This document shows positions 62,898-64,000 of a stretch of 64,000 nucleotides of DNA, in pieces. The number at the start of each line of letters is the position of its first letter. Within the stretch, counting starts at the first letter, position 1. Where the stretch lies: positions 62,001 through 126,000 of the forward strand of contig ONAN01000002.1 of assembly GCA_900315805.1 (NCBI GenBank), given 5' to 3'. A model generated the notes under the pieces. It saw only the letters and a program-made list of their open reading frames with translations. It was not told the DNA's origin and did not search any database. The position numbers and the translations under genes were made by a program. The DNA is from an uncultured Selenomonadales bacterium. Lineage in GTDB: Bacteria > Bacillota > Negativicutes > Acidaminococcales > Acidaminococcaceae.

Positions 62898-62962
62898 TCG
62901 ATTCCGGTATACGGATCGGCTGCGAACAAGCTTTATGATGATTAGGAAAAGGAGTGCTGAAA

Positions 62963-63445: not shown

Positions 63446-63546
63446 TCGGACCGCAAACCTGAATTACGAAACGAATACAGGCTTTTTGCGCCTGTTATCT
63501 TAAATACCTGTTTTGACACAGGAGACATGGAGGTGAAAGATACAGT

Positions 63547-64000
63547 ATGGCTAGCGATGAAAAACTGAGCCTGATCCTCAAGAGCCTGGAAAAACTCCAG
63601 CTCGCAGGGGACAAGCTGAAGTCCGTAGCCAGCAACGGCATCATTCCCGTTGTCCTGACGACGGCTAAAGAACTCACTGTATCTGAAAAAGACACCGTAG
63701 CCAAGTTTATCGGCGATAAGCTGGGCTATCTGGTATACTTGGAAACCACTGTTGATCCTTCCATTATTGGCGGTTCCGTATTAAAAGCCGGCGATCAGAT
63801 TTATGACGCCAGCGTGAAACGTCAGATGGAAAAGGTCAGCGATGCCATGGCCAAGGAAACTGTAAAGGGCGGTGCCCTGACGGACTTCGCCGCAGTGACC
63901 GAAAGCCTGACAAAGACTGTTGAAAAGACCGACATCCAGCCCGATATGGAAGAAGTCGGCACCATTGAAAAAGTAGGCGACGGCATTGCGACCGTGACCG
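63547..64000 (+). CDS. Fused ATP synthase delta C-terminal domain and alpha subunit (3' end outside window)
   Basis: One uninterrupted frame of 151 codons to the window end. Residues about 28-103 match the AtpH C-terminal domain (ELTVSEKDTVAKFIGDKLG; VDPSIIGGSVLKAGDQIYDA). It then runs directly into an alpha N-terminus (VTESLTKTVEKT, EEVGTIEKVGDGIATVT). No delta N-terminal bundle is encoded before it; the 101-nt gap after atpF holds only GGAGG and a small hairpin (63477-63495). The upstream in-frame stop is at 63514. ATG 63547 is the only start seen. Confidence 0.82.
   Translation, partial: MASDEKLSLILKSLEKLQLAGDKLKSVASNGIIPVVLTTAKELTVSEKDTVAKFIGDKLGYLVYLETTVDPSIIGGSVLKAGDQIYDASVKRQMEKVSDAMAKETVKGGALTDFAAVTESLTKTVEKTDIQPDMEEVGTIEKVGDGIATVT

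Follow-up and report, generated by a model that had tools for sequence, protein, structure and literature searches.

A natural delta-alpha fusion in the sole ATP synthase of an Acidaminococcaceae bacterium from the rumen: inferred origin, recurrence and a possible multi-stalk enzyme

In ordinary ATP synthases the N-terminal domain (NTD) of the delta subunit lies on the F1 axis, and the N-terminal helix of alpha docks it. To our knowledge, the accepted view is that an ATP synthase has a single stalk with a single a subunit, and that its ion/ATP ratio is varied only through the c-ring. The window analyzed here, a stretch of 64,000 nucleotides from a rumen Acidaminococcaceae bacterium, ends within a gene in which only the C-terminal domain (CTD) of delta precedes alpha, in the same frame, and the question that it raises is what kind of stator, and how many stalks, such an enzyme can carry.

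As listed in Table 1, the frame stays open up to the end of the window and, when read in the whole contig, it forms a single 616-aa ORF without internal stops. In Pfam searches, positions 98-172 of the 172 of PF00213 (OSCP/delta) matched residues 28-101 (E 1e-14), followed by the beta-barrel (134-201), nucleotide-binding (258-473) and C-terminal (480-605) domains of alpha, and the NCBIfam model TIGR00962 (atpA) matched the protein with an E of 6.5e-238. The atpHA fusion is confirmed as real, in agreement with the original prediction, which had read a single frame with the delta CTD and then alpha after atpF; past position 64,000 the gene encodes a complete alpha, with GDRGTGKS as its Walker A motif. 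The prediction had also assigned the first ~100 residues to the delta CTD, which holds for residues 28-101 but not for the first 28 or so, a leader resembling the alpha N-terminal helix. The absence of the delta N-terminal bundle was rightly called, since the PF00213 match starts at position 98 and there is no other match over the cut-off.

The operon around the fusion is complete, in the order atpI-B-E-F-[deltaCTD-alpha]-G-D-C, and its subunit set (alpha, beta, gamma and epsilon plus a, b and c in one operon) is that of an F-type enzyme. A separate canonical delta, with NTD and CTD in its own subunit, is absent, and the CTD alone is found, joined to alpha. The genome encodes one F1 beta and one F1 alpha, the fusion itself, which is also its sole PF00213 match over the cut-off, so that the full atpH accompanied by a normal atpA that would have refuted the prediction does not exist there; no delta NTD was found in this genome by the PF00213 search. 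The fusion enzyme is the only ATP synthase of this bacterium. Shine-Dalgarno sites of the GGAGGTGA type precede nearly all fused genes, and for atpF an upstream GTG at 62954 is also possible as a start.

Table 1. Positions of the atp genes and of the parts of the fusion in the window, and of the related small gene in the sister family f4
Feature	Position	Strand	Basis
atpI-like membrane protein, 136 aa	61412..61822	+	operon-head ORF; homologues likewise placed in related genomes
atpB, subunit a, 234 aa	61841..62545	+	ORF, operon comparison
atpE, subunit c, 83 aa	62646..62897	+	Asp at the Ilyobacter Gln32 position; Glu-Ser at 65-66 (motif comparison, PMC3692424)
atpF, subunit b, about 160 aa	62963..63445	+	AGGAG 9 nt before a TTG start
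Extended Shine-Dalgarno GGAGGTGAA of the fusion gene	63529..63537	+	sequence
atpHA fusion, delta-CTD + alpha	63547..64000, on to window-equivalent 65397	+	ORF, Pfam, NCBIfam
Leader, aa 1-27, putative copy, now diverged, of the alpha N-terminal helix	63547..63627	+	shuffle comparison, z=3.1
Delta C-terminal domain, aa 28-101	63628..63849	+	PF00213 positions 98-172
Junction and retained alpha N-terminal helix, aa 103-133	63853..63945	+	aligned with sister-family unfused delta and alpha; linker compared with PDB 9jc1
First part of the alpha beta-barrel domain, truncated by the window end	63946..64000	+	Pfam
110-aa alphaN-deltaCTD gene (f4), between full atpH and atpA	L074:7168-7500; L075:4316-4648	oriented with the operon	

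The same fusion was sought in related genomes, and it is fixed in the Acidaminococcaceae. PF00213 matches over the cut-off were present in 50 of the 59 genomes of the family, from 18 genera, all of them restricted to the CTD and in frames continuing into alpha (proteins of about 590-650 aa where uncut by contig ends or breaks), and the nine genomes without such a match were also without an F1 alpha match. A detached AtpH N-terminal domain, which the original prediction had considered, was not found in the genomes of the family. Weak PF00213 matches running through upstream stops in G002 and G042 were discarded as NTD remnants, as they fall on the part of the b gene that encodes its C-terminus. 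Two of the nine genomes without an F1 alpha match (G049 and G052, 88-93% complete) carry only distant V-type-like subunits instead; either they have lost the F-type enzyme or it may fall in an assembly gap. In other families of the class, the delta genes among the matches listed are ordinary ones of 179-212 aa (E about 1e-27 or better), one genus excepted. The alpha+beta phylogeny groups the window protein with that of G001, a single-contig genome taken as A. fermentans VR4T, which carries the fusion as well.

The origin of the fusion can be approached through the sister family f4 (bootstrap 100 with the Acidaminococcaceae), in which two genomes have a full delta, a separate 110-aa alphaN-deltaCTD gene and alpha, linked by 4-bp overlaps. 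The 110-aa gene is under purifying selection (dN 0.106, dS 0.501), and on sequence grounds the arrangement represents the unfused evolutionary intermediate. Its first 22 residues match alphaN with z of 7-12 against shuffles, and so do the leaders of fused proteins that evolve slowly; in the faster-evolving genera, that of the window included, drift of the leader has left a weak match, as in the window protein (Table 1), or none. From these matches, the leader of the fusion is read as a copy of the alpha N-terminal helix. A derivation of the leader from the delta linker helix was rejected, with z about 0 versus the 7-12 obtained with alphaN in slow-evolving copies. We propose that a tandem duplication of the deltaCTD-alphaN stretch would have produced a separate alphaN-deltaCTD gene beside the full delta, that the full delta would then have been lost, and that the loss of one stop would have led the small gene to be read into alpha. 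These three events would account for both the f4 intermediate and the alphaN-like leader, and their order (duplication, delta loss, fusion) is inferred. The distance from the D.S of the CTD to the VG of alpha is 47-50 residues in fused proteins (37 in G042) and 45-56 in unfused relatives when the delta tail and the alpha head are summed: the two were joined end to end.

The fusion is also found outside the family. Two Schwartzia-like Selenomonadaceae genomes (g86; G218 and G296, loci L076 and L077) carry a whole Acidaminococcaceae-type atp operon with the fusion, nested beside the genus of the window with a support of 100 for the genome with complete alpha and beta. MurE, encoded 38 kb from this operon on the same 322-kb contig, is by contrast selenomonad-like (57-60% versus about 50% to Acidaminococcaceae), so that the operon was probably gained by horizontal transfer, apparently replacing the native one, as a spread to another rumen lineage. 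Contamination was rejected as its source because the two genomes agree and because of the selenomonad-like MurE on the same contig.

A wider survey, in which 399 genomes were sampled across the phylum and then followed up, detected NTD-less CTD-alpha fusions in f36, f54, f55, f73, f103, f136 and f145, and others of this kind forming a second operon beside a normal enzyme in three genomes (f81, f113, f147). The loci outside the Acidaminococcaceae (L162-L169, L171-L174) belong to about ten other families. A single origin was rejected by AU tests on alpha+beta for all fusions (p 2e-33) and, likewise, for all those outside the Acidaminococcaceae (p 2e-8), in such a way that at least three origins or transfers are needed.

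Other arrangements of delta parts were observed as well. G567 has an unfused 80-aa delta-CTD-only gene directly before alpha (L170:1997-2239, oriented), with no NTD found in the genome; G342 encodes a 290-aa delta with two CTDs in tandem (L175:1692-2564, oriented), and in G627 a weak delta-CTD match lies across the frame of a 271-aa b subunit (L176:1719-2534, oriented), like the b of N-ATPases. Outside atp operons, proteins of 130-169 aa with a delta-CTD-like domain (DPSIIAGMVI...DLVIDMS) are encoded at L177, L178 and L180 (G324, G436 and G402); the L177 gene adjoins a MoxR/GvpN-like AAA+ ATPase, and this cluster is possibly gas-vesicle-like or of unknown function. A detached delta-NTD-like ORF of 104-127 aa was found at L179:5204-5587 (G446; also in G519 and G622), and no atp genes were seen in the surrounding 11 kb in G446.

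How the parts of the fused protein may work was judged from their conservation. In pairs matched for divergence of the alpha core (70-85% identical), the identity of the CTD is 0.471 in fused proteins versus 0.476 in unfused delta, whereas that of the alpha N-terminal helix falls from 0.769 in unfused to 0.386 in fused proteins. Such a loss in the helix with the CTD kept is expected if the helix has lost its NTD partner and the contact with b is retained. The dN/dS of the CTD was 0.00-0.25 in the pairs with usable dS. The c subunit was also compared with the Na+ ligand set Gln/Glu32, Glu65, Ser66, Thr67 and Tyr70 (Gln32 in Ilyobacter). Asp32, Glu65 and Ser66 are present, which recalls two-carboxylate Na+ rotors (PMC3692424), with Ile at the Thr67 and Tyr70 positions; as unfused relatives have the same motif, the Na+ signature was rejected as support for the mechanism. 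An AlphaFold model of the fusion (pLDDT 41, shallow alignment) was not used as evidence.

A direct reference exists for such an architecture. Ueno et al. (2025, PMC12229609) deleted the delta NTD of Bacillus PS3 FoF1 and fused the delta CTD to alpha, obtaining enzymes with up to three b2 stalks, each with one a subunit; cryo-EM classes with 0, 1, 2 and 3 stalks made up 15, 51, 26 and 8%, H+/ATP was 5.8 versus 3.0, the equilibrium pmf was halved, and the NTD was identified as the element limiting stalk number. In their discussion they report the same NTD-less fusion in A. fermentans and in UniProt G4Q3K6 and A0A1I2C5T3, and predict a multi-stalk enzyme (PMC12229609). A natural delta-alpha fusion, which the original prediction had believed to be unknown, had therefore been noted already, and the window protein is a further case. 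Residues 31-612 of the natural protein align end to end with residues 2-579 of the PDB chain 9jc1_I, with a linker about 3 residues longer.

On these bases we propose, with a probability of around 0.6, that the window enzyme carries several stalks and has a raised ion/ATP ratio, although its native stoichiometry, structure and ion/ATP ratio are unmeasured. Three alphas per F1 would bring three delta CTDs, and in the absence of the NTD each of them could bind one b2 dimer together with a separate subunit a, so that a single c-ring would serve as many as three stalks and ion paths. The ions used per ATP would be raised two- to three-fold, in such a manner that ATP could be made at low sodium or proton motive force. 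The original prediction had inferred three CTDs per F1 and a changed stator, and the engineered enzyme with its up to three stalks points in the same direction. The proposal is supported by the fusion with loss of the NTD, its fixation in the family, the alignment with 9jc1, the shift in conservation, the intermediate and the recurrence. As a limit, three stalks were found in only 8% of the engineered particles and one in 51%, so assembly in vivo may be limited too.

ATP synthesis at low gradients would suit cells whose energy comes from reactions of small free-energy change, such as decarboxylations. Succiniclasticum and Schwartzia specialize in converting succinate to propionate, which yields very little energy, and from general knowledge we infer that a high ion/ATP gear would suit them. 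In A. fermentans, which is without quinones, the sodium motive force is made by a decarboxylase (PMC3035267).

A single-stalk enzyme remains possible, albeit less likely. In it, the fusion would be only a covalent substitute for the contact between delta NTD and alpha, a tether enough to hold the stator, with one CTD holding one b2 and one a and the other two idle, either for want of more than the ordinary amounts of a and b or because the c-ring and lipids exclude more. The operon does have one a and one b gene, as in single-stalk relatives, without added copies, and a single stalk was seen on half of the engineered particles (PMC12229609); against this, the NTD that limits stalk number according to Ueno et al. 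is lost in every fused clade examined, and their engineered analogue, without any selection for it, had on average about two stalks already, as judged by gel and H+/ATP. A mixed pool of alphas is improbable. Internal initiation or proteolysis would give plain alpha, and each F1 would keep the classical stoichiometry with one delta-CTD-alpha and two plain alphas; in-frame ATG/GTG/TTG codons are present near the junction, but of 32 fused genes only 3 have such a start backed by a 4-base Shine-Dalgarno match, at a position that is not conserved, and there is no second alpha gene in the genome. Finally, although many of the genomes compared are metagenome assemblies, a stop lost or a frameshift introduced in sequencing, assembly or gene calling, as the original prediction had feared, can be set aside, since the same fusion is found in about 50 genomes of 18 genera, the finished G001 included, a frameshift cannot produce a missing NTD, and the CTD is under purifying selection.

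The f4 intermediate, the alphaN-derived leader, the loss of conservation of the alpha helix (from 77% to 39%), the probable move of the g86 operon and the recurrent fusions are new here; the main text of Ueno et al. does not deal with the distribution, origin or intermediate of the fusion, and names none of the other lineages given here (PMC12229609). If the multi-stalk proposal with two or three stalks is true, nature already uses another lever than the c-ring, so far reached only by engineering, and it can be seen from the intermediate and from the repeated origins how such a change can come about without losing the enzyme. As the family is culturable (A. fermentans), the question of the stalks is directly testable.

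Compared with known systems, the engineered PS3 FoF1 (9jc1) is the closest, as it has the delta CTD directly on the alpha N-terminus, no NTD, a linker of nearly equal length and the other subunits complete; it differs in its GGSGGS linker, where the natural protein has a native one and an extra alphaN-like leader, and in that its stalk number and ion/ATP ratio were measured, these being only inferred for the natural protein. The A. fermentans fusion of Ueno et al. shares family and architecture with the window protein and comes from another genus. In the Mycobacterial b-delta fusion (PRK13428 type; PDB 7jg5) the delta CTD is also joined to another subunit of the ATP synthase, but this is b, the NTD is kept and there is one copy per enzyme, whereas in the window enzyme the CTD is on alpha, the NTD is lost, three copies per F1 are inferred and b is a separate 160-aa ORF. 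N-ATPases also lack a full delta in the operon and have a CTD-like stretch on another subunit; however, this is b (TIGR03321), atpQ and atpR are in the operon, and the gene order is beta-epsilon-I-R-a-c-b-alpha-gamma (PMC4154653), unlike the standard order of the window, I-a-c-b-alpha-gamma-beta-epsilon, with its fusion on alpha. The A/V-type ATPases with two or three peripheral stalks resemble the proposed enzyme only in how they would work, with several stalks per hexamer; their stalk proteins are unrelated, and the window enzyme is F-type by all its subunits.
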